Source: Cloeon dipterum (taxonomy: Eukaryota > Arthropoda > Insecta > Ephemeroptera > Baetidae). From it: a stretch of DNA of 64,000 bases. Positions 8,500 to 50,132 of this stretch are shown here, in pieces. Numbering within the stretch: the stretch's first letter is position 1; the number at the start of each line of letters is the position of its first letter. The stretch covers positions 32,791,883 to 32,855,882 of the forward strand of contig NC_088789.1 of NCBI RefSeq assembly GCF_949628265.1, given 5' to 3'. The translations under genes were made by a program, and so were the position numbers. Below the pieces are notes generated by a model. That model was given only the letters and a program-made list of their open reading frames with translations. It had not been told where the DNA came from and did not search any database.

Positions 8500-10669
8500 T
8501 TATCGATATTTCAACCGAAACTTCTTAAAACGTAGTGACATAGCTACGTCAAATGATTCGGTATCATTCGTCTTCAAATCGTGTAATTCGCACACAAGCC
8601 ACTGACGCATTTCCTCATTGCCATTGTTCCGGGCGATGAGCATTGCAGTCTTCCCATTCTCTCCACTTGCCATGCTCTTGGCCAATCCGAAAACGAATTT
8701 AGCACTCTCCAGCTGATTGGCCGACACGCAGAAAAGAAGCAAATTGTGTCCTCCACATTTTTCGTGAATGAGGGATTCGTTGTGTTCGAGCAGAAACTTC
8801 GCAATGTCAAGCTTTCCGAACTTGAGGGCAAGATGAAGAGCATTTTCTTCGTCAACGTCGTCTTTATAATAGGCTTCTTGGTCAAGTTGCCCGATGAAGC
8901 GCTGAATTATTTCCAATCCGTGAGCTTCGTTGAGCACAGCACGGCGTAAAAATGAAACCTTTGTCATTTCGGTTGCAGTTTCGAAATTCAGCTTGGTCAT
9001 CAGCCATTGGCACATTTTGACGTTTGCAAACTCTGCCGCGACGGGTAAAATGGTCGCGCCGTCTGCAAGCTGCGGATTTTCACCGCAAATCCGCATCAAG
9101 AATATAGCACCCGGCAGCAAATTTTTCTCCACGCAGTATTGGAGGAGACCACGCCCTTTCCACGTCACGTCAAATCTTGCACCACTACTAATCGTCATTA
9201 AAACCTCAGCGGCATCGATGTTTTCATACTTTAAAGCAATATGAAGGGGAGTTTCTCCTTCTTGGTAGAACGTTTCCACGTGTGATTTGAATAGTTCACT
9301 GAACTCTAGCAGGATCTTGCTTCCGTGTTGTTTGTTCTTCAAGGTGGCTAGAAGCCAATTGAAATTAGGGTAGAGCGGCTGATTAGCATGAGCGTTTTCT
9401 ATAATCCATTGACACATTTCGACGCTCGAAAACTCAAAAGCGAGAAGCAGCAACGACTCGTCGAACTGGACATTCGGTTGTCCCAATCCTTTCACGAATT
9501 TGGCAAGCAGAAGTGAATCTTCCCTCACGCAAAGCAGCATGTACGCTTGCTTTTCTTCTTCGTTTGCAACCAAGGTGACACCCTTCTTCAAGAGTTTCGT
9601 CGCAACGTTGCAGTTTCCGGTTTTAAGAGCTCTGGCCAGAAAAGTTGGCCGCTCCCAGATTAGCAAGTTGGAAATTACGAAGTTGGCAATCTCGTCGCCG
9701 TGAGTCGCGTTCTTGTCGGAATGCAGGAGGATATTGTAGAATACATCATGATCATTCACTCCGCCTATTTGGACCAACCACTGCAGCATCGGCAAGTCTG
9801 CGTGAGACGCTGCCTTGTACAGGAGGTTTACATCGAACTGTCCGACTAATCCCTTGGCAGTAAGTGCTTCAAAAACTAATTTTGCCGAGTCAACTCCTCG
9901 CTCGCAAATGCAATGCTCCAAAAGACTTTCTTCGTAGCTTAATTTGCTGATTAGAAATAATGCATTCTCAATATTTCCCTCTCTGAGAGCGTAGCTGAGA
10001 GCATCGAAATCGAATTCATCTTGCAGAGATAGGTCTACACCTTGGCGGTGAAAGAAATCAAGCACATTTACTCCGTAGTCGGTGTTCATGGCAGCGTAGT
10101 GAACGACGCTGGCCCCGTTATTGTCGATATGGCTTTTATAACTGCTCAAGTCGAAGAGGCGATTGCAAACTGCATCATCGCCCACTTTTGCCGCGAATAG
10201 AAGGGCAGGAATGTCGCCTCTGTGTGCATTAACGTACTCCAACTTTTCTTCGACTGAAGTAAGCTCAGAAAATTTCCTTTCATTTGGAAGTTGCTCTGGT
10301 GGAAAAGAAAATTAAAAGATCAGTACGTGAACGATTCAAGGAATCCCAATTATCTTACCGCCTTTTGTTGATTCCGTGCACTTTGGTTCTTCGGCTACGG
10401 GAAAATATTTCAACTTTCCACCCTTCATCACTTGGCACGTCAATATCCAACCTTCGAGTTTTCTTTTTAATCTCTGACTCAGGAGATTTTTCAGCGGGCC
10501 GTTTTTCTAAAGGAAATTTTACATAAATCGTTATATTAAAATATCTATGAATTTTAGTGTTGATTTCTTGTGACACAGGAAAGAGGCATTGAAATATTTT
10601 ACCTGCTTCGCACGTGGAATTCTTTTCTTCCGACACTTCTCTGGGAAAAGCTTCAGCGTTGGATTCCAT
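8500..10669 (-). CDS. Long ankyrin-repeat protein, copy B
   Basis: The main exon, 10295-8500, is open for almost 600 codons and consists of consecutive ankyrin-like repeats, roughly 30-35 residues each. Examples are NGASVVHYAAMNTDYGVNVL, EGETPLHIALKYENIDAAEV and ENALHLALKFGKLDIAKFLL. No transmembrane, kinase or other catalytic domain is seen. Two upstream exons are supported: 10669-10603 (first ATG at 10669, MESNAEAFPREVSEEK) and 10506-10359 (EKRPAEKSPESEIKKK, a basic linker also found in the ankyrin gene at 32,624). A 5' UTR exon donor is visible at 10,840. The ATG exons end in phase 2 while the ankyrin exon needs phase 1, so either a different donor inside exon 2 is used (for example CCAA|gtgatg) or the frame is broken. 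The gene lies head-to-head with RCBTB copy B. Ankyrin arrays usually act as binding scaffolds; the partner is unknown. Confidence 0.75.
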
Positions 10670-12382: not shown

Positions 12383-15246
12383 ATGGTGGAAATCTTGGAC
12401 AAGTGGAAAATATTTCAGGAGCTGAGCGACGAACTGAAGCGGAATATCAGGCTTGCGGTTGTATTTAGTAAGATTTAAATTTTATTTTTATACAAAATTT
12501 TCATTAGACTAATTAAGTAAGAAAATTTGAAAATATTATGTGGAATTTCGGATACTTTTCTCTGTAATATTATTTAGTTTCTATTAATTGCCCATGCTGC
12601 TATATTCAATGCTTTTCATTAAAGTTAGAGCTTTGAGAACATACTAAATCTTTGCTATTTGACATTTAAAGAAGGAAGCGCAATTTACGTGACGAAAGAT
12701 GATCAAGTTTACGGCTTTGGGGAAAACAAAACAGGATTTCTTGGTACTGGCGACGAGGAACCACGCACAGAGCACACAAAAATTGAACAATTGTGCGGAC
12801 AAAACATTCAAGGTGAAGATTGTAGATTTATTATTGATGTGGCTCCAAAATAATATGACGAATGTTTTTCTTCAGAGTTGCAATTCTCATATCGTACGTT
12901 TTTTGCGATTTCTGGTTCCGGCTCAGTTTTCGCCTGGGGAAGAAATGATTTTGGCCAGCTTGGACTGGGTACCAAACGAGACACCTTTATTCCAACCAAA
13001 ATAAAAGGAATTTTGGCAACAAAAAGAGTTGTGCAAGTGGCCTGCTGCTGTGACCATACCCTGGCATTAACTTCGGATATAGAGGTTTAAATAAAATGAA
13101 TGTAATTCATAGTAGTGATTCACAGTTTTAAATACCACACTTTTAAGGTCTTTTCCTTTGGTCGTAACGATTATGGGCAGTTGGGCCTGGGACACAAAGG
13201 TGACCAAACTTTGCCATCAAAATTGGTATTTCCTTCGGCTGGAAGAGTTGTGACATCCGTCGCTTGTCTCTATTTATCATCTGTAGCACTCCTAGACTCA
13301 AGAGAGGTGAAAATTATTTATTATCTTTTAACGAGTCTTTACGAGTCTTTGCTTTTAAGTGTAATCTTTCCCCAAAAATTTATAGTCCAAAAATCACCCA
13401 GAGTTATACCAACTTCGCCACAGATTATTATCAGGAATTATTTTTTACTATCCCACGGTAAATAAAAAAATTCACGAGAATAACCTTCAGGGTTAATCGG
13501 AAAAATATTTGTAGAATAACCCAGGAATATTCCTTGGAGAAGAATCCTTTTCCTCTTGCTTCTGCCTTTTTGATTAACCCTGGGTTAATCTCGGGATAAT
13601 ATTTTGGATATCCATTCGATTATTCTTTGGGCAACATTAAGTGTGGCAAAAAAGTTATCCTTAAATTGAGATTTTTTGTTCCCAGAGACTATATATACTC
13701 AAAAAAATCACCTTTGATTTATTTATATTAATTATTCAAATCGGCTGCTTTTCTGCAGAACTATAGATATAAGATGAAAATATTATTTCTCATATACCTC
13801 TTGTTAATAAGTTGACCATTCACTTTCAAGGTATTTGCGTGGGGGAAAAATGAAGCTGGCATTTTGGGCCAAAACGCATATGTGAAGGAGCAAAAAATTC
13901 CTTGCAAAGTGCCAGGCTTGGATGGCATTACCATTACAAAAATTGTTTGTGGAGTAAATCATGCCCTCGCTTTGTCCGACGATGGAAAAATCTATTCTTG
14001 GGGATGGAACGAATGTGGCCACCTTGGAAACGGAACCTACAAAAATTCACACCAACCAACTTTGATATCTGGAAATTTTGGCAGGTCAGTTGAGATTTTA
14101 CGGATAATTAACAACTATATTAAGCACTGCTGAATGAGTGAAATATTTATAAGACAAATTGTGTACAAATAAACAATCCTTTTGATTGTTGATAGGATAA
14201 GAGACATAGCCGCTCATTACACTAGCCATCGTAGTACTGCAGTCACAGAAGGAAATGAAGTATACGTATGGGGTTGCTCGGGATCCCGAGGTAGGATTTT
14301 AATCTTAAAAATAATTAAAACATAACAAACGCACGAATTCTATCTTAAGGCTCATTTATTGTAAGCCCCCAAAAAACTATATTAGCATCACTGGATGAAG
14401 TTTTTGTGAATATTCCAAATAATGGGGCAATTACATTCCGACCGTTGCGTCCAAATCTTGACAAGACGATAGAAGAAAATAACACTGGAAACGAATGGCC
14501 GAAATGGCTCAAGAAAGCTTTTAATCACGCCGTAAGGAAAATAGACATACATTTCCAAAAATTTTACACGACAAATCGTGGCGTATATAGGATACAGCTG
14601 ACGTTGTTTTCGTTGTCGAAGGAAAGAAAATCCACGCGCACAAAGCAATTCTGATATTGCAATGCGCCGTTTTCGAGACGATGTTCCAGGGTGATTGGAA
14701 GGAGAGCCACGAAAGGTAATTTATTTAATTTCGCGAATAAAATAAAATTTAATTTTTAAAAGGGAGCAAATGATCGAGAATCACAGCTACGATGTATTTT
14801 ACGCCTTCTTGAAATACTTTTACACCAACGAGGTTGATTTTCAGCCAGATTTGGCTCTAGGTAAAGAAATTTAATTAAAGTGGTTTCTGTTTTCAAATGA
14901 TTAACTGAAAATATAGAAATTTTCTCCTTGGCCCACTTTTATCTGATGACTGATCTGCAAAAGGAGTGCTTGAAAATTATCAAGAGAGGATTGACTGTGG
15001 AAAATGCAGCTTCGATTTACGACAAAGCAATTCAACTTGCTACCGAGGTACCTTATTACTATTTTTATAATAACATTTCTGGTCTGGACTCTCATTTCTT
15101 TTTAGGAAGTTAAGGAGTTCGTTTTCAGTTTCTGCTTAGAGAACATGACTGCTGTTGTGAACAGTGATGGCTTCAAGCTCTTGAAGGATGATGTCATGAG
15201 AGACTTCATTCTTCGTGCGGCGCAGCAAGGAGTGTTTAAAAAATGA
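12383..15246 (+). CDS. RCBTB-like: RCC1 and BTB domain protein (RCBTB1/2-like), copy B
   Basis: Eleven exons mirror copy A: 12383-12467, 12672-12812, 12876-13084, 13148-13306, 13831-14084, 14196-14290, 14350-14531, 14591-14715, 14763-14860, 14917-15047 and 15106-15246. Phases are compatible throughout and the product is 539 aa. RCC1 blades include VFSFGRNDYGQLGLGHKGD and IYSWGWNECGHLGNG; the BTB domain starts at DTADVVFVVEGKKIHAHKAI. Compared with copy A there is one codon fewer in exon 5 and two more in exon 6, plus many substitutions concentrated in RCC1 loops. The N-terminus is MVEILDKWKIF, nearer the family consensus than copy A. Intron 4 is longer (524 bases) and holds the same transposon remnant. 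It appears functional from sequence. The likely role is the same as for copy A: propeller-based recognition coupled to a BTB domain. Confidence 0.9.
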
Positions 15247-15483
15247 TAATTATTATAGGTTGAGAGAAGCAGAATGTGTATATTTTTTAAATTTTGTTCC
15301 TTACATCCAATAAATATTAACTTGTATGAATTAGGACGAGTGTTATCTCTGTTAAGGCACCTTCTTTGTCCTTATCTTGTCTACGTCTCCGCGAGTTTCG
15401 ATAATCACCAAAATTAACAGCAAATTCTTTAATTATTAGTTATATTTGTGCAATTTTGAGAAGAACAATTGCTCACTTTGTTA

Positions 15484-20001: not shown

Positions 20002-22341
20002 ATGAAGTGCAGTTTACATAAGTGGAAAATATTGCAGAAGTTGAGCAACGAACTGAAGAGGAATATCAGATGTGCATTCGTATTAAGTAAGCTTTTAATT
20101 TCATCCTTTAATGAGGCTCAAACTTGATATTATGTTTAATTTCTGATTATTTTTTTACTATATTAATTAGTTTCCACTGCCCAGTGCTAAATTCAAAGCT
20201 TTATTTAAGTTAGAGCTTTGATAATAATTCCCAGTTTCCTAAGTAAAACCTCTCATCTTTGCTATTTAACATTCATAGATGATGGCGCAATTTACGTGAC
20301 GAAAAGAGATAGAGTTTACGGCTTTGGGAAAAACCAAGAAGGATTTCTTGGTACTGGCGACAAGCAACCACGCGAAAAGCACACAAAAATTGAACAATTG
20401 TGCGGACAAAACATTCGAGGTGAAGATTTTGATCAAGGATTTATTAGATTCCCGAATAAATATGTTTTTATGTTTTCATTTAGATGTGCAATGCTCACGC
20501 AATACATTCTTTGCGATTTCTGCTTCCGGCTCAGTTTTCGCCTGGGGAAAAAGTGATTTTGGCCAGCTTGGACTAAGTACGGATAGAGAAACCTTGATCC
20601 CAACCAAAATAGAAGGAATTTTGAGAGCAAAAAGAGTTGTCCAAGTGGCCTGCAGTGAACGCCATACCCTGGCTTTAACCTCGGATGGAGAGGTTGCAAC
20701 AAAATTTAATTTCATTCAAATTAATTCAAATATCACGCGCTCTGAAAGTCTTTTCCTTTGGTTCTAACTATTACGGGCAGCTGGGCCTTGGACACATTGA
20801 AGACCGAACTCTTGCAACAAAATTGGACTTTCCTGCGGCTTGCAAAAAAGTGACAGCCATCGCTTGTCTGGATTTATCATCTGTAGCTCTGCTAGACTCA
20901 GGAGAGGTAAAATTTTTATTTATTTCGAGAGCTCAAATATTTATTTAGAAATAAGATGGAATTAATTATTGGATCATTCAATTTAAAGGTGTTTGCTTGG
21001 GGGAACAATTTATATGGCATTTTGGGCTATAATAATGAAGACTTGGAGGAGCAAAACATTCCTCGCCAAGTGCCCGGCTTGGATGGCATCACAATTACAA
21101 GAATTGTTTGTGGCGCTAATCATGCCCTAGCTGTGTCCAAAAATGGAAAAGTCTATGCTTGGGGATGTAATTATTTTGGCCAGCTTGGAAATGGCGCCAA
21201 CCGAAATTCACACCGACCATCTTTGATAACTGGAATTGTTGGCAGGTCAGATGGACAATAGTAGTATAAATGAACAAAATATTAACGTGACAAAAATGTT
21301 ACTATAGGGTAAGAGACGTAGCTACTCATTTCGCAAGAAGTGTTAGTGCTGCGGTCACAGAAGCAGGTGAAGTTTACGTATGGGGTGACACCAATGGTAC
21401 GAGTTTGAATTTGGAGTAAAAAACGATTAAAAAATAATGAATCATGAATAGGCAACAAATCTAACAGGCCGAAAAAAACCTTTTGCAAATCGCTGGATGA
21501 AGTCTTTGCGGATATTCGGAATAGGGAATTTAGATTCCGACCGTTGCATTCAATACTTTATGAGCCGAGAGAAGAAAAGATAAGTTCTGCTCCCGAATTG
21601 CCGGAATGGCTCAAGAATTCTTTTGATGACGTCGTAAGGAATATAACACATTTATTATAATATTTGATAAATTAATCGTGTTGGATAGGATTCTGCAGAC
21701 GTAGTTTTTGCGGTCGAGGGAAAGAAAATCCACGCGCACAAAGCAATTCTGGTCATGCGATGTGAATTCTTCAGGGCGATGTACCTGGGAAATTGGATAG
21801 AGAGCAACAAAAGGTAGATATTTCAACTTGTTAATGTACCAAAACCTAATTTTAAAAGGGAGCAAATCATCGAGCATGGCAGCTATGACGCGTTTTACGC
21901 CTTCTTGAAATACTTCTATACCAACGAGGTTGATTATTTTCAGCCAGATTTGGCTCTAGGTACAGAAATTTAATTAAAGTGGTTTCTGTTTTCAAATGAT
22001 TAACTGAAAATATAGAGCTTTTCGCCTTGGCCCACTTTTATTGCATGACTGATCTGCAAAACGAGTGCTTTCAAATTATCCAAAGAAGCGTGACTGTGGA
22101 AAATGCAGCGTCGATTTACGATCAAGCAATTCTATACTTGATGTTGAGGTTCCGATTTGATTTTCTCTAACTAAAAGTTCTGGTTGGTAAACTTAATTCT
22201 TTTTAGGAACTGAAGGAGTTCGTTTTGAACTTCTGCAAGAAGCACATGAATGCTGTTGTGAAGAGTGATGGTTTCAAGCTCTTGAAGGATGATATGAAAA
22301 ATTTTATCCTTCGTGCTGCGCAGCAAGGATCGAGCGCTTAA
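20002..22341 (+). pseudogene. RCBTB-like: Third RCC1-BTB paralogue (RCBTB-like), probably damaged
   Basis: Same eleven-exon plan as copies A and B: 20002-20086, 20279-20419, 20484-20692, about 20749-20906, 20989-21245, 21308-21396, 21452-21633, 21689-21813, 21859-21959, 22016 to about 22148, and 22207-22341. Domains are recognisable: blades such as VFAWGKSDFGQLGLS and VYAWGCNYFGQLGNG, BTB start DSADVVFAVEGKKIHAHKAI, and a tail ending AAQQGSSA. Two positions break the frame. The intron 3 acceptor reads GAAAG|TCTTTTCC and lacks the G seen in the paralogues (AAG|GTCTTTTCC), shifting frame unless an alternative acceptor 33 bases inside the exon is used. The end of exon 10 has two extra bases, so joining exon 11 gives an early stop. 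Exons 5-9 are otherwise clean. It may be a recent pseudogene or produce a shorter protein. Confidence 0.7.
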
Positions 22342-22695
22342 AAAAAGATGTCAAGGAGGCGATTTATTCTGCTAAGAGAAGCAAAGATTTAAACATTTTG
22401 TTCGTTTACCAATAAAAAATATTTTTTCGAATTAAGACGCGTGTATGATATCACTGATTGTGAGGTGGCTTTTACAGTTTTTTCTTAATTCGCCCAGACT
22501 GTGTTTGATGTTTGACGTCGACGACCTAAGGTTATAGGTCGATTAATCTAACTTCAATTTTTGAATGCAAATCCAATATTATAATCTTAACTAACACGTT
22601 TTCGACTAAATCGTAGCCTAAGGAAACATAATGTTAATCGAATCCACAATTTCAAGATTTGTACATGCAAATTGATTGTTATTTCTCTCGATAAT

Positions 22696-23333: not shown

Positions 23334-26300
23334 TCAGAAGACGCACTCGATGTTCAGAGAACGCCCGATGAACGAGAGAATGTCCGTGTCCCATTCAATC
23401 TGAAACAGGATTTTCCTAACTTATTTATTTAAGCTTTTTACTAATAAAAGTTAGGAGGCGCTTCAAACTGCGACTGACATAATAATGTCAAATTTCAGAT
23501 CTCAATTGAAATATTTTGAAGCAATTAATCCGAAACCGTGCAGTTAAAATAGTAAATCAACTGTGGCGCCTTCTGTTTTCGTCTTCAAACACTGAAGCAG
23601 GACTTGTCAAATTAGCGCATCGTCTTAGATTCAAACAAAAAAGTAGATTTGGGTCTCACCTCATCGGCAGTAGTGGGTTTGTCGTTACCACGTCCAGCCT
23701 TGGTCTGTACCTTGATGAGCAGCGGGTTCATCTGAAACAGATTCAAAAGAAAAATATCCGATTTAATCGCTTTCGACTTACATCGATTTTGGTTTTCAGC
23801 ACATCAAAAGAAAATATACAAAGCAAAGAATGCTTAGTGGCAGGATTGAGTCTGAAATCGCAGCGGAAGTGCCTTGACGCCTTGACAATAAATTTATTAC
23901 GAATGTATAAGGTGGTGACATCTGTTGGAGGGTTAATACAACTGGTCCAAAAAAACACCTTAATTCTCAAATAATATAACCGCTTATATTTCTGCTCAGG
24001 ATCCGAATCAGAAAATATAGTGGAAGCTCACCTGGACAGGTTGGTAGCGCAGGGTGTGTTGCAGCTGGGCGATGAACTTGAGAGAGTGGAGGGGCTCTTT
24101 GTGGTCGGCGGTGAGCAGCAGCGTGGCCGGATACTGCATGGGGCTGGGCCTCTCGAACAAATTCTTCGGAGCATCTTCGTCCGGCACCCTGATGTTGTGC
24201 AGCGGCGAGATGTCCAGCAGCTTGCGGAAGTGAAGACCCAGGTAGCAAGAGATCTTTGACAAAGATTTGGGGGGGGGGGGGGTTCAAATTATTTTAAAAA
24301 TGTTTTCAGACATCCTTACTGGGCAATATTGTTGATGGTACAGGGAAAAAATGCTTTGGCAATTTTTTCGAATTATTTTACAGAAGTAATCGTTTAAGTT
24401 TCTTTAAATATGTTTCAAACATTGAAAAAGCGTTACATTTTATCAATTATAATGATTTGAAGAGATTATTTTGAATACGAGAAGAAATATTGCCAAGACA
24501 ACCCTAATATCTTAAAAACATTGTCAAGAGATATTTTGCTACCTGGGGAAGGTCGTCTGGGTTGCAGTACTCGGACATACACGCGGTGCCGGAATTGACC
24601 TTGCAGAAGTGAACCAAGTCAAGCACTCCGAATTGCACGATGGCGGCGCCGAAGAGCTGCGGCCGTTGGTTGATGCACGCCCCCACCAGCAGGCCGCCGA
24701 TCAAGCCCCCCTCGATCGTCAGATGGGCGCTGCTCGTGTATCTCGCCGAGATCAGGTACTCGGCCGCGGCCTGGAAGTCGTCCAGACCGTTCTGCTTGTT
24801 GAACAGACGACCAGCGTTGTGCCACGACTCGCCGTACTCTCTGGAAACAGACAATTGGTGATTTTAGAGAGACTGCCTGAACGAATGACTATGCATAAAG
24901 GAGCGCCCGTGGCGAGAACCAAGATTTGTCACTCTGCTTACAATTCTTGGAGGGTTTGAGTGACAGGAAATTTTAGGATTTTATAAGAGAAACTTATTTA
25001 GTATCTGGAAATCTCTGAAATTCTTTTTATCTCTTCTTTCTGGCAACCAGTCTGTCCGTAAATGTCGTAATAACTTGTAAAATGAATAAAAAAGTTTACT
25101 CACCCCCCGCCCCTTATGTTGGCAACGGCGAAGACTCCATTGAAATGCTGCATGAAGACCAGTCTTCTGGCGTGGAAGGTGGGCAGAATGCTCTTGCCGA
25201 AGCCTCCGTATCCATACAGCAGGCATGGACTGCTGCCGTCCCTCTTCAAGTCCTTCTTGTGCACTATGAACAGGGGCACTATGGTGCCGTCCTTGCTCCC
25301 ATAGAACACCTGCTTCGTAATGTACAACGACGCGTCGAAGTCCTTCAACTCGACTTTTCTGTACAGCTGAAATTGAAATTGGAAAATAAGTTTTTTAAGT
25401 ATTTATCACAAAATAAAACTCGTTACCACAGGCTCGATGATCGGCTTTGACAGGTCACACATGTAAATCACTCCCGGCGTGAGGAACGAGTAGAACTCGA
25501 AGAATAATTCCGGGTACTTCCTATTTTCCAACACGCCGGACACCATGCCGTTATCCAGGGGCAGCTGCGTGATCAGATCTCCGGTGGCTAAATCTCGGAT
25601 TTGCAGCACGCTCTGCATTAAAAGGGATTTATATTATTTTAACAATCAAATTAAACATAGGTCGAACTTTGACGTCGTGGAAGTAGCAAACGACGAGTTT
25701 GTCTTTGTTTGAGAGGACGGCCCATTTGAGCACGTCCTTTGGGTGCTCGGCCACCAGGGTCCTCCACTGGTCCATTCTCGGATTTTTCAGGTCGATGCTG
25801 ACCAAACGGTAGTTGGGCGCGTCCTTGTTTGTCCGGAAGATGAACTCGGACCCCACGTTTGTCACGTACTGGGAAAATTAAATTTAATTAAATTTAAATG
25901 AAATTTATACCCACACCTCTTAAAACACTTTTTTTCATTAGAGACTCTTTACAGGGTAGGGTACCGAGTTATGCTCTATTAATGAGTTGAAATCAAGTCT
26001 GAAAGACAAAGGGCTAGCGCGAAGCACTCATCTGGAGGCCATTTATCCTTCAATGATGACTAACCTCATAGCCAGACTCCATTTTGTGCACGATTTGGGT
26101 GAGAGGCAGCGGTCCTCGAGGTCCATCAGGCAGAGAGCCGATCTTAGCAAAGAACACCATATTCCCCTTGCCATAGAGCGGCAAGACAATCAGGTAATTG
26201 CCACAGTGGCACACAACGGCATCTCTAATAGATTTTAAAAAAATAAATAACTTATATTAAAAAACGATGAATCGTACATCATGATACACGGATCGTCGAG

Positions 26301-27246
26301 GAACTGGACGACCAAAACGTCCTCCGACCGTGGGGTGTTAACCCTATGGTAGTACAGCTGTTGGTACTTGATCGCCACTTTTCCCTGCTTTTCCAGACAC
26401 ATCTGAAATAAAAAAATAAACGTGAATAGGACTGATGATTTTCCTAAAAAGAAAAATATATTACGGCATAAAAAATTCCTTTGTTGTCGTGCGACCACGT
26501 CAACGGGGAAATCTTGACCTTTTCCAGCACCTCTGGATAATCAAGCCCTGAATTTAGAAGATAAATAATTATATAATTATACTCCGTATTTTTATTATTA
26601 TGCCTGTTTCGGTGTCTCTAAAGTGGATGGTGGTCCAGTCTGAACCGCTTTTGCTCAGGCCGTAACACATGGTTTTGCCATCCTCGGAGAACGCAGGTTG
26701 AGTCAGCACCATTGAGCCATCCTTGGACAGCTCATTCGGGTCCAAAAAAACTTTTGCCTCGCCGTATAAACCATCCTGCACGTACAGCACGCTGAAAAAT
26801 TAAGAATTATAATTATGAAGATAAAGAAATGTTAGAAATGCAAAACAACACCGAATCATGACTGGCCAGCACCGTTACGGCGTACGGCCGCCATTTTGAT
26901 GCGCAAAATATATATGCAACTGCTCTTCCATTGGTCACCAGCAAAATTACCTCCGATTCTGGAGGCCAGAGCTTTTGGAGAAGTAATAGCGGTCGCCACG
27001 GCGCAAGGAACACGAGTAACATGGAAAGTTCATGAGCTGCCTGAGGCGACTCTTGATTTTCTGCCTGTCATTGAAGTTTTCCAGGTACGGCTGGGTAATA
27101 GCGTTCTGCCTCTCCACGAACTCCATGCGCTCGGGCGAGTTGGGATTCTCGAGCCAACGGTAGGGGTCGGTGACCATGTTTCCGTGGTAATTGTCCACGA
27201 TCTCGTCCCTCCTGGCAACCGGGTACAGGTAGTTGTCGAAGGCCAT
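23334..27246 (-). CDS. PREP-like: Prolyl oligopeptidase homologue lacking the catalytic triad (pseudoenzyme)
   Basis: Twelve exons on the minus strand: 27246-26951, 26791-26604, 26547-26465, 26402-26278, 26224-26065, 25868-25668, 25612-25427, 25366-25104, 24840-24543, 24253-24032, 23731-23660 and 23399-23334. All phases join and the product is 719 aa (human PREP is about 710). The N-terminal cap and seven-bladed propeller are recognisable ([37 protein letters not shown]). The C-terminal alpha/beta-hydrolase half has [22 protein letters not shown] and [10 protein letters not shown]. The active site is gone. The nucleophile motif GGSNGG is EGGLIGG (Leu547 for Ser554). The loop with Asp641 and Arg643 is shortened to [10 protein letters not shown]. 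The His680 motif KAGHG is KAGRG (Arg688). The S1-pocket Trp595 is Cys588. Intron 2 uses a GC donor (CAG|gcataa). The frame is intact, so a non-proteolytic role is inferred, such as the protein-binding functions reported for PREP. Confidence 0.88.
23775..23950. mobile_element. MITE relic (CACCAGTTGC family) in a PREP-like intron
   Basis: Contains GATTTTGGTTTTCAGCAC, GATTGAGTCTGAAATCGCAG and a terminal CAACTGGTCC, matching the right half of the MITEs at 31.7-50.1 kb. The left half is missing and it is more diverged. It lies in the intron between 23,731 and 24,032. Confidence 0.65.
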
Positions 27247-31693: not shown

Positions 31694-32128
31694 TTCACCA
31701 GTTGCATAAACCCTAGGTGTTCGAAGCCGCCAACAGATGGCGCCACCGTAGACTTTCGATTTTAAGGCACTTCCGCTGCGATTTCAGACTCAATCTAGCT
31801 ACTGTGCATTCTTCAATTAATTTGGTAATTTTTGACGTGCTGAAAACCAAAATCGGTTCAGCCAATCGCCGTAGAATCGTGAAAAACTATTTTTTGAAAT
31901 AAAAAAATCTTGTCCAACGTTTCTACGGCGAATGGCTGAACCGATTTTGGTTTTCAGCACGTCAAAAAAAACAAATTAATTAAAAAAAGCAAAACAGCTA
32001 GATTGAGTCTGAAATCGCAGCGGAAATGCCTTAAAACCGCTTAAAACAAAATTTTTAAGAAAGTCTGTGGTTGCGTCATATGTTGGCGGCTTCGAACACT
32101 AACAATAAGGGTTTATGCAACTGGTCAA
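31694..32128. mobile_element. MITE copy 1, CACCAGTTGC family (palindromic, about 0.43 kb)
   Basis: Begins AATTCACCAGTTGCATAAAC and ends GTTTATGCAACTGGTCAATT. The arms are about 190-bp inverted repeats meeting near 31,900 and share the word CCAAAATCGGTTCAGCCA. No coding capacity. The end sequences differ by one base (TTCACC versus TTGACC), giving the element a readable orientation. Confidence 0.85.
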
Positions 32129-32623: not shown

Positions 32624-34134
32624 TTATGTCGGATTAAGGGGGCTGGTGGTGATTTCCCTTAGCCACTGGATCATGGGCTTGTTTTCAAACTTTGTGGCGA
32701 TGCGCAAAGCGGTCTTTCCATCCGGTCCTGGTCCATTGACCAGGCTTTTCTTCTTTTCGTACACAAACTTTGCGCTGGAGAGCTCGTTGGTGCCCACGCA
32801 ATAAAGCAGCAGATTGCATCCTTTAAAATCGACGTCTAAATCGGCGCCATATTTGATCAGTTCCTCGGCAACATCCAGTCTTGCATTGCGAAGGGCAAAG
32901 TGAAGCGCCGTTTTGCCTAGCGTATCCTTTCGATTCACGTCAATCGCGGACATTTTCGGGGCAAAGAACTTAATGTTCGCTAATGCGTGCGATTTATTCA
33001 AAACAGAATAGTGGAGAACCGTGCACAACGAGTCTTTATCAACAGCACTGACCCTGAAACCCTGATGTCTGACCATCCATTCACACACATCAGGCCTCGA
33101 ATGCTCAGAAGCAAAGTGGAGGGGATAGATGAGGATTTTATCCATCTTCTTCCCGACCAGCTCGAGGAAACGACTAATGCTCTCGACCTTGACGTCTTTA
33201 TAGCTGATTAATTTTTTAAGAAACTTTTTGTTTCCCGTTATAAAAGCGCCATGCTTAACCAGAACGTTTACCACGGGAATGTGCCCATTCAAAAATGCGA
33301 ATTGCAACGGATAATCTAATTCCCTTTTTTTCAACAATTTACGGTAATTTTTGATTAAAAAACTAATTATTTGCTCGCCGTGCTTCTTGTTGGCACTGCA
33401 CCCCGCGAGAGCCTCGCCGAGCATTTCTTTTCTCACATCGCAGATCTGGATGACCCACTTCATGGTGTCCAAGTCTCTGAACGCTGCCGCCCGGGCCATC
33501 AAATAAATCGAGTCGAATTTTTCATTCAGGTAGACCTCGGACGCTTTTTTCTCGTATAAACACTTCAATATGTCCAGTCCGATCGCATTATTGCCGATGC
33601 AGTATTCCAGAAAGCTCGTATCCTCTGCTCTTTTGTTGAACAGTGCGATGGCGAAGTCGAAGTTTCCCTCTTTGACGGCAATGATTTCCGCTCCCTCCTT
33701 GGCGGCATTTTTTCTTTTGACGTCTGCTCCGAGGCTCGCGAAATATTCGAGCAGTGCCAAGCCGTGCGCGGCGTTCCTGGCGGCGTAGTGGAAGACGTTG
33801 GAGCCTTTTTCGTCCACGGTGCCGACGTCGTGGGCCCTTTCTTCCACGAAATAGCGGCAAATTTCCAAATCGCCCACTTTTGAGGCGAAAAGCAGCATCG
33901 GAGTTTCAGCTCTGTTATTCAGGACGAATTCCTCTTTTTCTTCCAAAGATGCCATCGCGGGGAATTCCAGTAGAGGAATTTTTTGATTCTCTGGACCAGA
34001 GGGTGTCTCAAGAGGTCGTTTTTCTTCAATGTATAAGGAATTGGAATGTTAGAAAAAAATGCGTCAATGAAAGGAATTTAACACTTACTGCTCTCCTTTT
34101 GGTTTGGCGAGTCCGTCAATTGATCTTTTTCCAT
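32624..34134 (-). CDS. Ankyrin-repeat protein, second gene
   Basis: Two coding exons: 34134-34089, opening MEKDQLTDSPNQKES, and 34023-32624, joined in phase 1. The product is about 481 aa. After a basic linker (KKRPLETPSGPENQ) the rest is ankyrin repeats: EKGSNVFHYAARNAAHGLAL, YPLHFASEHSRPDVCEWMV, GKTALHFALRNARLDVAEEL. It ends with PDGKTALRIATKFENKPMI, the same C-terminal cap as the gene at 8,500-10,669. No other domain is present. A 5' UTR intron is supported by a donor at 34,736 (CAG|gtaaat) and an acceptor near 34,171 (TTTTCCAG). The shared linker, cap and exon layout show that the three ankyrin genes in this window are paralogues. Function is unknown; a scaffold or binding role is inferred from the fold. 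Confidence 0.88.
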
Positions 34135-34860: not shown

Positions 34861-36224
34861 TTGGCGGTAGGGTGGATACACAAAAATAGATTTACGCGCG
34901 CTTTTCATTTCAAGTTTGAAAATTTGTAAACATTTTGCAAGAAATATTTTTACAAAAGGCGGTTCACCAGTTGAATAAGCCCTTTTATTGTTTGAAACCA
35001 CCAACAGATGGCGCCACCGTATAATATCGTGATAATTTTGTGTAATACTGCACAGATATGCGAGGTGAGAGTGAGGGTTCAGTGGTCAAAAATTCGAATT
35101 CAAATTTTGCTTTATTCTTTAAGTCGGAATATTTGCGATGACTTTTGAATAGTTGTCAATATCAAATTAAAAATATACATTGTTTTACAACACTTATATA
35201 CTTGTGACCAAAATACAAAACATCCAAAAGCTCAAGGATTAAAGGAGTGGAATGATACTGGGCAACGATTGAAAATTATTTGAATTGTTGGATGCCATAA
35301 ACAATTGATCGGTAAACAATTTGTTCAACAATTTGCAATAGTAAAAAAGACCTTCCTACAATAAAAATTCAAATTTTGCCAATTAACTCCAAAATTTACA
35401 GTGCTTGAACATATTTTCTTGGCATATTCCGATTCCTCTGGTCGAGATCTGTCCAATGGTGTATGCCACTTATTGGGCAAACCCTTGGTTTTCAAGTAAG
35501 GAGACAGCTACCATTTGAAAAGCACGCTAACTTTATTCCAGCCAATTTTCTAAAAATATTACAGTGCTTCTTATGTCAATTTAGGTTTTAACTGAATCCT
35601 AAGGCACGAGTTTATGCATTGGCAACAAGCATTTTCCACGCTTTCGCAGTATCATTCCTCTTTAAGTGCTTTTTAGAATATGAAACAACCAAAAGGAATT
35701 ACGTTAATATTAAGAAATCTTTTGTTACTTAAGAAAGATGTGGAATTTCATTGGTCCCCGAGGAGAGTACTTTAATGCAGAAGAACTAATATCCTTAAAA
35801 ATAACGCAATTGTCAATTTGGAATGATCCATTGTGTTACCATGGTGGACTACTTAACGCGGTTTAGAAATACTGTCGTAAATAAAAGGTTCGGAAATTCC
35901 CACAGGTATTGGTACCATAAAAAAAGGATTCACACTCTATACTTTCTATAAATATATTAAAACGCATATAAAATACAAATTTTGTTCGTAAAAATTCACC
36001 ACGTTTTGACATCATTTCGGTGACACATTTAAATTTCTGAACACGAATTTGTGACGCTTTTTGTAGAAACACTTTGTCTTGTAATAAAAAATATCACGTA
36101 GGGAGACAGTCTTCCCCTTTTGAATGTTCTTAAATGGTCCTTTCCGCCGTTTATTCACAGTTTTGAGGCACTTTGATATCACATCATGCCTTCTAGGCTT
36201 CAAATATTGTTTCTGAGCACTCCA
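34861..36224. other. Intergenic, with one MITE end fragment
   Basis: 34,974-35,035 matches one terminus of the CACCAGTTGC MITE family (TTCACCAGTTG, CCAACAGATGGCGCCACCGT) without its partner end. The rest is AT-rich with no gene recognised. Confidence 0.55.
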
Positions 36225-36627: not shown

Positions 36628-39600
36628 CTACATTTCTATCTCCATTGACCAATCAAAAAGCGACTCTCTGCGGTAAAATGCAATGTTATCAGCCCCTTGC
36701 TCAACCAACCAATTCGTCATTTCCAAATTGGAGAACGTTTGAGCAAGATAAACAAGGCTTTTGCCTTCCACCTGCTTCTCGGTGATCAGATCAAAGTTTC
36801 TTTCGTGCAAAAGTTTCGCGCAATCGATTGTGTCGTGTATCACGCAGCAATGGAGGTAATTGTTTCCCTCCAATTTCACTGTTAAGTCTGCGCCATTCTC
36901 AATCAACACTTTCACAACCGAAACGTTACCGTTCTCTATTGCTACGTGGAGAGCCGTCTCTCCATCGTAGTTTGTAAAGTTAACTTCTAGTGACATTCTT
37001 GAGGCGAGAAACCGTGTCACTTCCTCACCAAACCGATGGTTCAACGCTGCGTAATGCAGGAGTGAGCCTTTCTTGCTCTTGACCTTGAAGTCAATGCCCT
37101 GCTCCACCAGCCACTCGCACAGTTTAACGTCTGAGTAGATTACTGCTAGGGAAAGAATGTTCTCCTGGTGAATTTCGGCTTCTTCCACCTGCTCGCTGTC
37201 AGTCCGAAAAACGAACTTGAGGCTTTCCAGCAAGTTGTTGACCGCACAGAGCTGCAGCAAATTGAAACTGATATCTTCCATTTCTACTTTTGCTTTGAAG
37301 TTGGCGCCAAGCCTCACCAGCACCTCCAAAGCCCCGATGTTCTGAATGGCCAGGGCGATTCTCAAGGGGGTCAAGTCACTGTCAGTTTGGTCAACATTTG
37401 GCTGGTGCCTGGCGAAGAAAGGGATCAGGTCTTTGGCGTGCTTCATGTTGCGGACGGCAGAGTGCAGGATGGTTCCTCTCCAGCTGTCGTCCAGCGGTTT
37501 GATTTCCTCCACCAACCATTGGCACAGTTGCAGATCTGCGAATCGCGCTGCCAACTGCACGGATGCTGCTGTTGGAGCTTCCTCCGCCACCACCATCTTG
37601 GCAAACCTCAGGTGGTTGCTGGAAATGAAAAGGTCGAGCAAGGTCGGAAAAGGGTTGCACTGCTCGACGAGAATCCTAGCCACGGGAAAGTTCCTCGCCT
37701 CAAGCGCGTACTCGAGAGGAAATCTACCCTGAGCGTCCGGCTCGTTGGCTTTCAAGCCATGCAAAAGGAGCGAGCGGACGATTTTCCCTCCGCGTTCAAC
37801 GTTTGTGGCTGCGTAGTGAAGAGCAGTTGCACCCAACAAGCCGCACTTTGCCCTGATGTCGACTTCACCTTTCAAGAGCAGCTGGAAAACCTTCCAACAA
37901 CCAACCATCACGGCAAAGTGGAGGGCAGGAAGAAGGCCTTTGTGCGCCTGGATGAAGGCCAACTTATCTTCTAGTCGCATCTGCATGTTCATCTGAATCC
38001 TGCCCGCACAGAAAAATATGTTCCAAAGTTAACCCTGGGCTATACCATCTTCACCAAAGATTAACCGCCAGGAATGACTTTTTTATGTCCGAAAGTTAAC
38101 TAATGTCACGCTTTTTCTTGTTCAAGGTTAACCTCTTTGGTTAATCAGAAAAAATATTCCTGGAATAACCCAGGAATATCCTTGGAGAAGAATTATTTTC
38201 TGCCTCTTGGATTAACCCTGGGTTATTCTTGGAACAATATTTTGGTTAACCTTTCGATTATTCTTTGAACAACTTTAAGCGTGACATAAGTTATCCCTGG
38301 ATTATTTTTTTAAGTTAACCCTAGATTGTTCCTAGAGAATAACCCTGGAATATTATTTATTTTATTTTTATTTTTTTGCTTTTATTTAGGATTGTTGATT
38401 TAAATAGCAAAAACTTTATTCTTTATTACTTAAAATATAGCATAATTTATTTTTATCCAAACAATTACATACATATTACGAAAAATTATGGAAAAATTAC
38501 AGTTTCCGCCGGGCTACACAACTCGCCAGTTCCTGCAAGACTCCCATAATACTTTTATGTTGGATTCTCATAAGAACTGGCGAGATGTGACAATGAAGTC
38601 CGGCAGAAACTGAAATTTTTCCATGTACAAAATTTTCTAACACGCCGGTATCGTTTATCTTGAGGCCTAACTCAAAACTGAGGATCGCGGCAGCCGTTGG
38701 CAAATAAGCGTCCGACGCGTCCTTGTCTAGCCGATCCAGGCAATCCGTCCGAACCGCCGGCTGTCCGATTGTCCTTCACTATCACTTTTGGCGTCTAGCG
38801 ATGTCCGATGTCCGTTAAAACACTTTGAACTTAAACTTTGAACGGCCGTTGACGACTCGCTTGCGCTTGACTCTTTCGTTTTCGTTAGACTAGGGAAGAG
38901 AGCGAAGCAGGAATTATGGAAGTGGAAGTCGCCTGCTTGTTCTTGCCTGTCTGTCCTGCTGCCCGTCGCCCCCTCCCCCGCTCCATAACACAGGCAGGCA
39001 GAAGGCATTCCATGCAAGCGCGTGCATGCTTGTGCAGCCGCCGCTACCGCGCGCAGAATAAAATCGTCCTTTTAACCCTTGTTTGTCCTTCGTCATGACC
39101 AGATCTGTATTTAAAGATTTGCCCGTTTGTCGTTATATTTAATTAGGAAAATTTATTTGGCTTTAGTGATAGTAAATAAGTTTATTTAAATGAATTTAAA
39201 GCAAAGTTTCAACTTTTGACTCTGGGGCTTCATAAATTTTAGTTAAATGATCAAAAAATTGTTTGGTCGTAATATTTTAATTAAATACAACATCAAAAAA
39301 TTATAAATAAATATTTGCGAGAGTATTTTTTGCGCGTACAAGTTTGATAAATCTATAAAAACGTGGAATGCGTGTATTTAATTTTTAATAATTAAGAACC
39401 GCTCGAAAAATCTGGGGAAGTAGTTAATTATTCTAGTGGGCATCTTGAAGAAATATTCCTGGAATATTCATTTGGTTAATTTTTTAGGTTAACCCTTGAA
39501 TGATCCAAAAGAATATTTCTGGAACATTTAATAAGATTAATTTTTTGGGTTAACCCTGGAATGATCCAAAAGAATATTCCTGGAATATTTATGCATGGTT

Positions 39601-39941: not shown

Positions 39942-40375
39942 TTCACCAGTTGCATAAACGCTAAGTGTTCGAAGCCGCCAATTAACAGATGGCGCCACCG
40001 TAGACTTTCGATTTTAAGGCACTTCCGCTGCGATTTCAGACTCAATCTAGCTACTGTGCATTCTTCAATTAATTTGCTAATTTTTGACGTGCTGGAAACC
40101 AAAATCGGTTCAGCCAATCGCCGTAGAATCGTGAAAAACTATTTTTTGAAATAAAAAAATCTTTTCCAACGTTTCTACGGCGAATGGCTGAACCGATTTT
40201 GGTTTTCAGCACGTCAAAAATTAGCAAATTAATTAAAAAAAGCAAAATAGCCAGATTGAGTCTGAAATCGCAGCGGAAATGCCTTAAAACCGCTTAAAAC
40301 AAAATTTTTAATAAAGTCTGTGGTTGCGCCATCTGTTGGCGGCTTCAATAACTAAGAGTTTATGCAACTGGTCAA
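39942..40375. mobile_element. MITE copy 2, CACCAGTTGC family
   Basis: TTTCACCAGTTGCATAAACG to TATGCAACTGGTCAATTG, same orientation as copy 1. The arms meet near 40,150. It lies about 90 bases upstream of the visible 5' exon of the third ankyrin gene. Confidence 0.85.
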
Positions 40376-41937: not shown

Positions 41938-43686
41938 TCACTGCTTGTTGAGAGAAGACTTGCACTGTTGAGCTGGAACATTTCATTTTGAAAGGATATA
42001 ATTACAAAAAGGGATGAATTGACCAGTTGCATAAACCCTCAGTTATTGAAGCCGTCAACAGATGGCGCAACCACAGACTTTCTTAAAATTTTTGTTTTAA
42101 GCGGTTTTAAGGCATTTCTGCTGCGATTTCAGTCTCAATCTAGCTACTTTGCTTTTTTAATTAATTTGCTAATTTTTGACTTGCTGAAAACCAAAATCGG
42201 TTCAGCCATTCGCCGTAGAAACGTTGGAAAAGATTTCTTTATTTCAAAAAATAGTTTTTCACGATTCTACGGCGATTGACTGAACCGATTTTGGTTTTCA
42301 GCACGTCAAAAATTAGCAAATTAATTGAAGAATTCACAGTAGCTAGATTGAGTCTGAAATCGCAGCGGAAGTGCCTTAAAATCGAAAGTCTACGGTGGCG
42401 CCATCTGTTAATTGGCGGCTTCGAACACTTAGGGTTTATGCAACTGGTGAATTGGCTGAGTATAACTAAATTATCCTAATTACAGGGAAAAATTAATTAA
42501 TTACACTCACCGACATCTACATCTGATGAATTAGATGTTCTTCGACTTGATGGAATTCTCGGAGCATGTGATTGGAGCTTTCTGATAATTCCTGTCCCTT
42601 TTTTACGACCTTTGACAAAGGAATTAATAATGCATGACCAAAATAAAAGACTTATCTGTACCTTTGGTGGCCGCTTTATTCAGCTCCTGAGCGACTTTTG
42701 CCATTCGCTTTCTCTTCTCTTCAAGCAAATCTTTGAAAGTAGCGGCTTCAGTAGGGAACTGAAGGAAATTTTGATTAATAAATTAGAATTTTGGCTGCAC
42801 ACAGCTCACCGTTGAGTTTTTAGAGCAGCTTGATAATTTTCCAAGCCCGATGTCGATTTCCTCGTGGGGCATGTTTTCCCATTTTCGTTGGAATGATTGT
42901 TCGAGGCTCAAAGCCATCATTCCAACTTCAGAGTAAAGGCCATTATTGTAGCGGGAGGCATTCAAAAATATTTGTTTCATATCGGAAATGCATTCCTCCG
43001 CATTGCTATAGTAATGGTTCCTCAATCTCTCCATCACCGTGCCGAGGTCCATGGGAGATTTGATTATTTTATAATAATCCTGCAGAATAAAAACCAAATT
43101 ATTCGATTTTCCACATGGTTCGAACGCTTTGACGAAGTTTCTGAGCTCGTCAATCGATTCCTGAGGGTCGAATTAGGTAAAATGGGTGTTTTTCCCGAGA
43201 AAAACGTCCAATGCGACATATGCGAACTTTTTTCCCGCCAAAACAATAATAATGCGAGAAAGGCGCATGCGTCAGAGCTGGCTATATGTGACGTACAGGC
43301 GGTCTCTCTGCAATTGCTCAAACCAGCTCTGACGCATGCGCACTTCTCGCATTCTTATTGTTTTGGCGGGAAAATAAGTTCGCATACGTCACGCTGCCCT
43401 TTTTACGTAATTCGACCCTCAGGAATCGATTAGTGTGCTCAGACACTTCGTCAAGGATGGTTTTTAATGTATTAAGAATGAACTCTACCTTGGCTGTCTT
43501 AACATTTACTGGTTCTCGAAATGGCCCCGCACATTCTAGTTCACAGAGAGACTCGACAACGTTCTTCAAATACTCTAACTGATTTGTCCATCTGGTCAGT
43601 TTTTCTTTGCTAGGAAACACCGCCAGAGGAACTACTCCACCGATTAAAACAATCAAAGAACTGACGGTCTTCTGGGCGGATGACAT
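41938..43686 (-). CDS. Small single-bromodomain protein, BET-type
   Basis: Five exons: 43686-43489, 43079-42810, 42758-42662, 42609-42511 and 41972-41938, all phases compatible, giving 232 aa. Residues about 33-135 form a bromodomain closest in sequence to BET proteins (WTNQLEYLKNVVESL, DYYKIIKSPMDLGTVMERLR, NASRYNNGLYSEVGMMALSL). The acetyl-lysine-binding Asn is kept (Asn111 of RYN), but the WPF shelf reads GPF (Gly54 for Trp), so the binding pocket is altered. The tail is basic (EEKRKRMAKVAQELNKAATK, GRKKGTGII) and then Ser-rich. There is no second bromodomain and no ET domain, so it is far shorter than BRD2/3/4 or fs(1)h. Intron 1 carries a fold-back element and intron 4 a MITE. It is probably a nuclear acetyl-lysine reader or a dominant-negative-like derivative; this is inference. 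Confidence 0.82.
42019..42452. mobile_element. MITE copy 3, CACCAGTTGC family, opposite orientation, in bromodomain intron 4
   Basis: Begins AATTGACCAGTTGC and ends GCAACTGGTGAATT, so it is inverted relative to the other copies as judged by the single-base end asymmetry. Confidence 0.85.
43152..43431. mobile_element. Fold-back element with terminal GATTCCTGAGGGTCGAATTA, in bromodomain intron 1
   Basis: The termini ATCGATTCCTGAGGGTCG and CGACCCTCAGGAATCGAT are exact inverted copies. Inner arms carry TTTCCCGCCAAAACAAT, GCGCATGCGTCAGAGCTGG and their complements. It is about 280 bases with no coding content. The arms include NRF-1-like GCGCATGCG sites. Confidence 0.8.
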
Positions 43687-44962: not shown

Positions 44963-45391
44963 TTCACCAGTTGCATAAACCTTACGTAAGTGTTCGGAGC
45001 CGCCAACAGATGGCGCCACCGTAGACTTTCGATTTTAAGGCACTTCCGCTGCGATTTCAGACTCAATCTAGCTACTGTGCATTCTTCAATTAATTTGCTA
45101 TTTTTTGACGCGCTGAAAACCAAAATCGGTTCAGCCAATCGCCGTAGAATCGTGAAAAACTATTTTTTGAAATAAAAAAAAACTTTTCCAACGTTTCTAC
45201 GGCGAATGGCTGAACCGATTTTGGTTTTCAGCACCTCAAAAATTAGCAAATTAATTAAAAAGAGCAAAATAGCTAGATTGAGTCTGAAATCGCAGCGGAA
45301 ATGCCTTAAAACCGCTTAATTTTTAAGAAAGTCTGTGGTTGCGCCATCTGTTGGCGGCTTCAATAACTAAGGGTTTATGCAACTGGTCAAT
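44963..45391. mobile_element. MITE copy 4, CACCAGTTGC family
   Basis: AATTCACCAGTTGCATAAAC to TATGCAACTGGTCAATTG, same orientation as copies 1 and 2. Arms are highly similar to them. It separates the two copies of the GGAGGCGCCACTTGCTGG repeat. Confidence 0.85.
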
Positions 45392-48060: not shown

Positions 48061-48467
48061 AAACCAGTTGTACGTATAAGTCCTTAGTGTACGAAGCCAC
48101 CAACAGATGGCGCCGCTGTAGACTTCCCCGTAAATAAATTTAATTTTAAGTCATTTCCGCTGCGATTTCAGACTGTCCTCACTTAATAATAATATGCTTT
48201 CTACTGTATTGACGTGCTGAAAACTAAACCAATCGCCGTATAGAATAGTGAAAAACTATTTTTTACCGAGGATTCTATGACGAATAACTGAACCGATTTT
48301 GGTCTTCAGAATTTCAAAATAAAGTAAATAAAGTGAAAAAGGACAGTAGCAGATTTGAGTTTGAAAAATGGCAACGGAAGTGACTTAAAATTAAATTTAT
48401 TACCTAAGTATACGGTGGCGCCATCTGTTGGCGGCTTCGAACACGAAGGGTTTACCCAACTGGTGAA
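48061..48467. mobile_element. MITE copy 5, CACCAGTTGC family, most diverged full-length copy
   Basis: AAACCAGTTGTACGTATAAG to ACCCAACTGGTGAATTAA. It keeps CCAACAGATGGCGCC and GGCGCCATCTGTTGGCGG arms but has many substitutions and indels, so it is older than its neighbours. Confidence 0.75.
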
Positions 48468-49700: not shown

Positions 49701-50132
49701 TCACCAGTTGCATAAACCCTAAGTGTTCGAAGCCGCCAACAGATGGCGCCACCGTAGACTTTCGATTTTAAGGCACTTCCGCTGCGATTTCAGACTCAAT
49801 CTAGCTACTCTGCATTCTTCGATTAATTTGGTAATTTTTGACGTGCCGAAAACCAAAATCGGTTCAGCCAATCGCCGCAGAATCGTGAAAAACTATTTTT
49901 TTAAATAAATAAATCTTTTCCAACGTTTCTACGGCGAATGGCTGAACCGATTTTGGTTATAAGCACGTCAAAAATAAAGCAAATTAATTGAAGAATGCAA
50001 AATAGCTAGATTGAGACTGAAATCGCAGCGGAAATGCCTTAAAACCGCTTAAAACAACAATTTTAATAAAGTCTGTGGTTGCGCCATCTCTGTTGGCGGC
50101 TTCGATAACTAAGGGTTTATGCAACTGGTCAA
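49701..50132. mobile_element. MITE copy 6, CACCAGTTGC family
   Basis: AATTCACCAGTTGCATAAAC to TATGCAACTGGTCAATTG, same orientation as copies 1, 2 and 4. Confidence 0.85.

Follow-up and report, generated by a model that had tools for sequence, protein, structure and literature searches.

A prolyl oligopeptidase paralog of the mayfly Cloeon dipterum with a lost catalytic triad and a transposon in its hydrolase exon: a candidate pseudoenzyme

The DNA that we analysed is a stretch of 64,000 nucleotides of Cloeon dipterum (contig NC_088789.1, positions 32,791,883 to 32,855,882), here called the window. Its minus strand carries a prolyl oligopeptidase (PREP) gene, gene X, at 27246..23334, the 12 exons of which join into 719 amino acids and a stop codon (Table 1). 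The exon phases are consistent and all introns are of the GT-AG type except for intron 2 (26548-26603), which is GC-AG; its GC donor is common to X and all ten of its paralogs in the genome. In Pfam, the X protein matches Peptidase_S9_N (PF02897; E = 2.7e-115, 385.9 bits) and Peptidase_S9 (PF00326; E = 2.1e-31, 109.5 bits), and the propeller and S9 hydrolase domain of an S9A prolyl oligopeptidase span its full length. The best-matching PDB chains are likewise PREPs, namely the abalone enzyme 6jci (740 bits), residues 39-738 of which match residues 5-715 of X from end to end, and the pig entries (~713 bits). Intron 10 holds one copy of a dispersed repeat whose copies are 69-82% alike and often lie in opposed pairs. 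Elsewhere in the window there are three long single-frame ankyrin-repeat proteins and two similar adjacent genes, one exon of each holding RCC1 repeats; the extents of the latter two and their putative BTB-like downstream part come from our reading of the frames.

Table 1. Features of the window, with positions counted from its first nucleotide
Feature	Position	Strand	Remarks
Exon 1	26951..27246	-	Start codon, N-terminal hydrolase segment, propeller start
Exon 2	26604..26791	-	Followed by a GC-AG intron, as in all 10 paralogs
Exon 3	26465..26547	-	
Exon 4	26278..26402	-	Loop A 18 nt shorter than in paralog A, in frame
Exon 5	26065..26224	-	
Exon 6	25668..25868	-	
Exon 7	25427..25612	-	
Exon 8	25104..25366	-	Hydrolase domain; Tyr473 kept
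Exon 9	24543..24840	-	GGLIGG (S554L, N555I); loop B with W595C; last 5 nt are transposon
Exon 10	24032..24253	-	Loop C: D641K, R643/V644/V645 lost; first 17 nt are transposon
Exon 11	23660..23731	-	KAGRG (H680R)
Exon 12	23334..23399	-	C-terminal segment and stop
Inverted-repeat DNA transposon remnant, 311 bp	24237..24547	-	Interior is the 'intron 9' of the sequence-only reading
Target-site duplication TC, left copy	24548..24549	-	
Target-site duplication TC, right copy	24235..24236	-	
Dispersed repeat in intron 10 of X	23784-23941		
Further copies of the intron 10 repeat	31764-32092, 34988-35039, 40016-40350, 42056-42377, 45037-45365, 48088-48437, 49770-50040		
Two genes with RCC1 repeats	12629-15371, 20209-22350		Similar and adjacent
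Three ankyrin-repeat proteins	8500-10311, 32624-34048, 36628-38028 (minus)		Long single frames

A protein search of the genome returned at least 84 matches, in X and at least ten further loci, which gives a PREP family of at least 11 copies: A lies on contig C4 and the nine copies B to J on contig C2. For each of the ten paralogs an open coding sequence can be assembled in which splice dinucleotides are present, and the triad is intact in eight of them. The sequence-only reading had proposed such a search for a second, catalytically intact PREP. The same genome gave 94 cuticle-type chitin-binding matches, against none in 14 prokaryote controls, as befits an arthropod. X pairs with A (support of 87 for nucleotides and 98 for protein), and in the protein tree B adjoins the pig and abalone PREP outgroups (support of 94). 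The possibility that X is the sole PREP of this genome was rejected, since ten further loci match and B lies nearest to the outgroups. The two paralogs with an altered triad, G and H, carry Ser554Thr; Asp639Asn is also found in both, and their frames are intact. With a joint omega of 0.45 (p = 1e-4 against 1), G and H are candidates for non-catalytic or altered PREPs that are better conserved than X. Position 553 is Asp in E, F, I and J, and position 640 is Tyr in J, so the activity of those copies is uncertain too. Loop A varies in length among the copies: in exon 4 of G the ancestral acceptor AG reads AA, and use of an in-frame AG located 18 nt further inside the exon would make the loop shorter, while in exon 4 of J tandem GSETEST repeats make it 14 residues longer. 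Across the family, model M2a fitted better than M1a (2dlnL = 81, p = 3e-18; 72 without X), with an omega of 3.5 for 7% of the sites, a signal that recombination between copies can inflate. Among the 14 sites with a posterior above 0.9, five (252, 478, 481, 483 and 577) fall in substrate-cavity segments, which belong to the inhibitor site or the inter-domain cavity of PREP according to the available text of PMC5446394.

Relative to pig PREP, the numbering of which is used throughout for residues of X, the X protein shows S554L, N555I, W595C, D641K, a deletion of R643-V645 and H680R; Y473 is kept. These are the changes that the sequence-only reading had described as a GGLIGG motif at Ser554, a shortened segment at Asp641 and Arg643, KAGRG at His680 and Cys for Trp595, and all of them matched the pig numbering; its coordinates for exons 9-11 were also right. 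In place of the triad of an active enzyme, X has Leu, Lys and Arg at Ser554, Asp641 and His680, whereas Ser554 is kept in eight of the ten paralogs and Asp641 and His680 in all ten. Arg643 and Trp595 are substrate residues of PREP; X is without both, the former being deleted and the latter replaced by Cys, and the paralogs keep Trp595 in 10/10 and Arg643 in 9/10 cases. N555I is also found in A and is therefore not a private loss of X. Loop C reads TADHDDRVVPLHS in A, the nearest paralog, and is shorter in X; loop A of X is also shorter than that of A, by six residues (18 nt, in frame). Judged by the predicted protein, the catalytic residues of X are clearly lost; that the gene is an open frame without them holds only if the exon 9/10 join, which runs through a transposon, is used. 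It is highly improbable that the active-site changes are errors of assembly or sequencing. Although a 14-base homopolymer in the transposon is a place prone to read errors, it lies outside the modelled coding sequence, and the changes are spread across three exons, in frame and with no frameshift, among many other private changes (142 of 1741 comparable sites along X, counted with the paralog exon 4 start placed 18 nt late).

The transposon separates exons 9 and 10. It has inverted repeats at both termini and is flanked by a 2-bp target-site duplication, which by itself is weak evidence of insertion. The counterpart of exons 9 and 10 is one unbroken exon of 481-505 nt in 10/10 paralogs, so the transposon was inserted into a coding exon of X, at loop B; on the same ground, we rejected the reading of intron 9 as an ordinary PREP intron. 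X thus contains an inverted-repeat element with a target duplication inside a coding exon. Fifteen other stretches of the genome match this transposon (16 including that of X), some of them being the two ends of a single copy. Copies with related ends include two longer ones (1,457 and 1,700 bp) and two shorter ones (508 and 181 bp), and the reading frames in the three longer copies are short, at most 110 amino acids. Of the five copies for which flanks were printed, we read four as having a 2-bp duplication and one as having a 3-bp duplication.

In the modelled join, the donor lies 5 nt inside one transposon end and the acceptor 17 nt inside the other; counting the 2-bp duplication, the coding sequence thereby gains 24 nt, or eight codons, and the frame is kept. 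Both sites are weak. On a weight matrix trained on 110 introns of these 11 related genes, which is not an independent genome-wide standard, the donor CAG|GTAGCA scores 1.16 against a family median of 7.5 and ranks 15th among the candidates in the stretch, whereas the acceptor CAAAG|AT scores -4.33 against a median of 12.7 and ranks 11th. The GC donor of intron 2 of X itself scores 1.37 on the same matrix. If the element is left unspliced, the frame stops ~612 codons in, 12 codons beyond the donor position. The claim that the exons join without a stop into 719 residues is borne out for the frame, the phases and the S9A domains, but its exon 9/10 part crosses the transposon and depends on splice sites within the transposon ends.

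A pseudoenzyme that was long maintained may have been broken by the transposon in the end, in which case the transcripts would retain the element, their frame would stop after ~612 codons, and they would be degraded or translated into a truncated, unfolded protein. X would then be a pseudoenzyme that has recently become a pseudogene. We regard this as possible but distinctly less probable than the reading preferred below; it is the main rival in view of the high omega and the few codons past the element. Besides the position of the element in a coding exon, its weak splice sites and the early stop, omega is 2.1 over the 113 codons past the transposon (p = 0.01 against the background, p = 0.21 against 1), and these codons had a ~49% chance of staying free of stops anyway since the insertion. 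Truncating PREPL at Glu687 is already enough to inactivate it (PMC11385081, available text). Against a recent break, the X copy of the transposon carries 15 private substitutions in 229 sites, at which at least three other copies have letters that all agree (the remaining sites were dropped), so the element may be old: at most ~two thirds of the neutral branch of X, an upper bound since the source subfamily may be unsampled. At that upper-bound age, ~3.8 stops would be expected in codons 1-597 since the insertion and none is seen (P = 0.02). Furthermore, the modelled frame continues in phase beyond the join and meets no stop, and the two indels downstream of the transposon are in frame.

The X branch has an omega of 0.92 against 0.55 for the rest of the 11-copy tree (LRT = 6.5, p = 0.011). 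It does not differ from 1 (p = 0.66), with 2dlnL values of 5.4 at an omega of 0.60 and 3.1 at 1.30, the highest tried. A dN/dS near 1 combined with no expression was what the sequence-only reading had named as the mark of a plain pseudogene, and the branch value supplies one half of that pair. B, in which the triad is intact, has an omega of 0.38 (p = 1.5e-6 against 1), while A (0.66), C, D, F (0.85), I and J are singly not significantly below 1. In a two-class codon model, ~75% of the background codons have an omega of 0.14 and the others ~2.0; X has 0.57 and 2.3 and differs from the background (p = 2e-7). The value of 0.57 at family-constrained codons is below 1 (LRT = 6.1, p = 0.013), although the same value would be expected from constraint followed by neutrality, with the neutral part limited, at the 5% level, to no more than ~28% of the branch at its end.

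The state of the reading frame bears on the same question. There is no stop in the 719 codons of X, whereas 6.7 would be expected on its branch under neutrality if stops arise as a single Poisson process over the branch (P ~0.001), and the splice dinucleotides of the ten shared introns have taken no hit against ~3.9 expected. Taken together, the absence of both has a probability of ~2.5e-5 for a wholly neutral branch and of ~0.05 if the last 28% was neutral. Each of the 11 exon length differences between X and A is either zero or divisible by 3, a comparison that predates an 18-nt shift of the start of A exon 4, by which divisibility is unaffected; of the ten shared introns, none is equal in length and three differ by a multiple of 3. 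Upstream of the gene, X and A are 73% alike over 346 nt, which is not above the level of neutral divergence and is therefore uninformative on promoter retention.

We then compared the positions of the changes with the gating loops of PREP, given in the available text of PMC5446394 as loop A (189-209), loop B (577-608), loop C (636-646) and the His loop (676-685); the Ser motif (552-557) is our addition to this set. The comparison used the 591 alignment columns in which X and both outgroups are present and at least eight of the ten other paralogs agree, and others were dropped. At deeply conserved positions, private changes of X occur at 13/40 positions in the loops and Ser motif against 19/257 elsewhere (p = 4e-5). 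Loop B contributes seven of these 13 changes, and 6/24 are left without it (p = 0.012). This stretch of X is also richer in silent changes (counted with paralog exon 4 started 18 nt late), so local mutation near the transposon may add to the loop excess. In A, with its intact triad, private changes number 2/44 in the loops and 17/258 elsewhere; outside the loops, X is thus hardly faster than A. A significant loop excess is absent from the other ten copies, the lowest p being that of G (0.085). Outside the loops, X has changed at 19/257 deep against 38/273 variable positions (p = 0.017), whereas over all positions the contrast between deep and shallow is not significant (p = 0.089; B, p = 0.0006). 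When the paralog exon 4 was started 18 nt late (60 nt in J), the deep and shallow counts were 26/240 and 27/186 (p = 0.3) and the loop test gave 18/43 against 19/258. The excess of changes in the loops is what would be seen if the active site had been released and the rest held, and is not as would be expected from uniform decay.

The same numbers weigh on a plainer account, a relaxed duplicate that is drifting to a pseudogene with its frame intact by chance. Consistent with it are the dN/dS of 0.92, the high background of the family (0.55, with F at 0.85) and the lack of a significant contrast between deep and shallow positions over all positions. It is nevertheless unlikely given the small probability of an undamaged frame and splice sites, which becomes ~0.05 only if neutrality is confined to the last 28% of the branch, together with the clustering in the loops and the omega of 0.57 at constrained codons. 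The sequence-only reading had seen X as a maintained pseudoenzyme. The missing stops, the loop-focused changes and the constrained codons agree with this, but the branch dN/dS and the weak splice sites of the transposon do not.

On balance, X has most likely been a non-catalytic paralog during the greater part of its evolution. That it is a PREP pseudoenzyme whose frame was intact for most of that time and which later received a transposon in loop B is a reading that we hold with about even confidence. PREP would have multiplied to at least 11 copies that diversified, X being one duplicate, which would then have lost Ser, Asp, His, Arg643 and Trp595, with the gating and lining loops of the active site remodelled, the fold under weakened constraint and the reading frame kept. 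After X and A had split, the hydrolase exon would have received a small inverted-repeat transposon within its loop B. Splicing at the weak donor and acceptor inside the transposon termini would remove it as an intron and leave eight extra residues behind; whether full-length X protein exists today depends on this splicing. At present X would encode a repurposed protein that does not cut, or else be a gene that has since been silenced. We infer that the protein is made and, as a further inference, that it acts by binding and not by cutting. Its cavity, between propeller and hydrolase, or its surface may bind peptides or partner proteins, or X may serve as a decoy beside active paralogs. More tentatively, X could be a functional S9A pseudoenzyme without a triad whose transposon-made intron adds eight residues to loop B, with G and H (Ser554Thr, purifying selection) as a putative second route.

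Several known systems resemble X in part. Like pig PREP and abalone PREP (6jci), X has both Pfam domains, an end-to-end alignment and Tyr473; it differs in that the triad, Arg643 and Trp595 are gone, loop A is six residues shorter than that of A and, if the join is used, loop B contains eight residues from the transposon insertion. DPP6 and DPP10 are membrane-anchored S9B pseudoenzymes with no catalytic serine that are kept as binding partners; X is also an S9 protein without this serine, but it belongs to S9A and its whole triad is gone. PREPL shares the S9 fold, and one of its functions survives catalytic loss: in the available text of PMC11385081, the S559A variant keeps a role in AP-1 (trans-Golgi) transport without catalysis, while it loses its mitochondrial function and binds six interactors more weakly. 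PREPL is a naturally working hydrolase, whereas the triad of X was lost in the germline. For S554A PREP in cells, effects on the dopamine transporter and a phosphatase were tested with mixed results (PMC7916783, available text), and for PREP and PREPL alike, part of the action is reported to be independent of catalysis (PMC11385081; PMC7916783). The transposon recalls the introners described in the available text of PMC9860276: it, too, has inverted repeats, lies within an exon, contains both of the candidate splice sites and would add codons (12 bp of coding sequence in Aureococcus). It differs from them in having only 15 other matching stretches, its weak putative splice sites and its 2-bp target duplication. 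Among the literature matches listed, none concerned a PREP pseudoenzyme, and for prolyl endopeptidase in mayflies no literature match was found.

If the preferred reading is true, a natural PREP paralog without a triad would show cleanly which PREP functions do not require catalysis. X could also be an animal example of a transposon that turned into an intron. Finally, the 11-copy PREP family of this mayfly, with its strong signal of diversifying selection, would provide natural variants for comparison.
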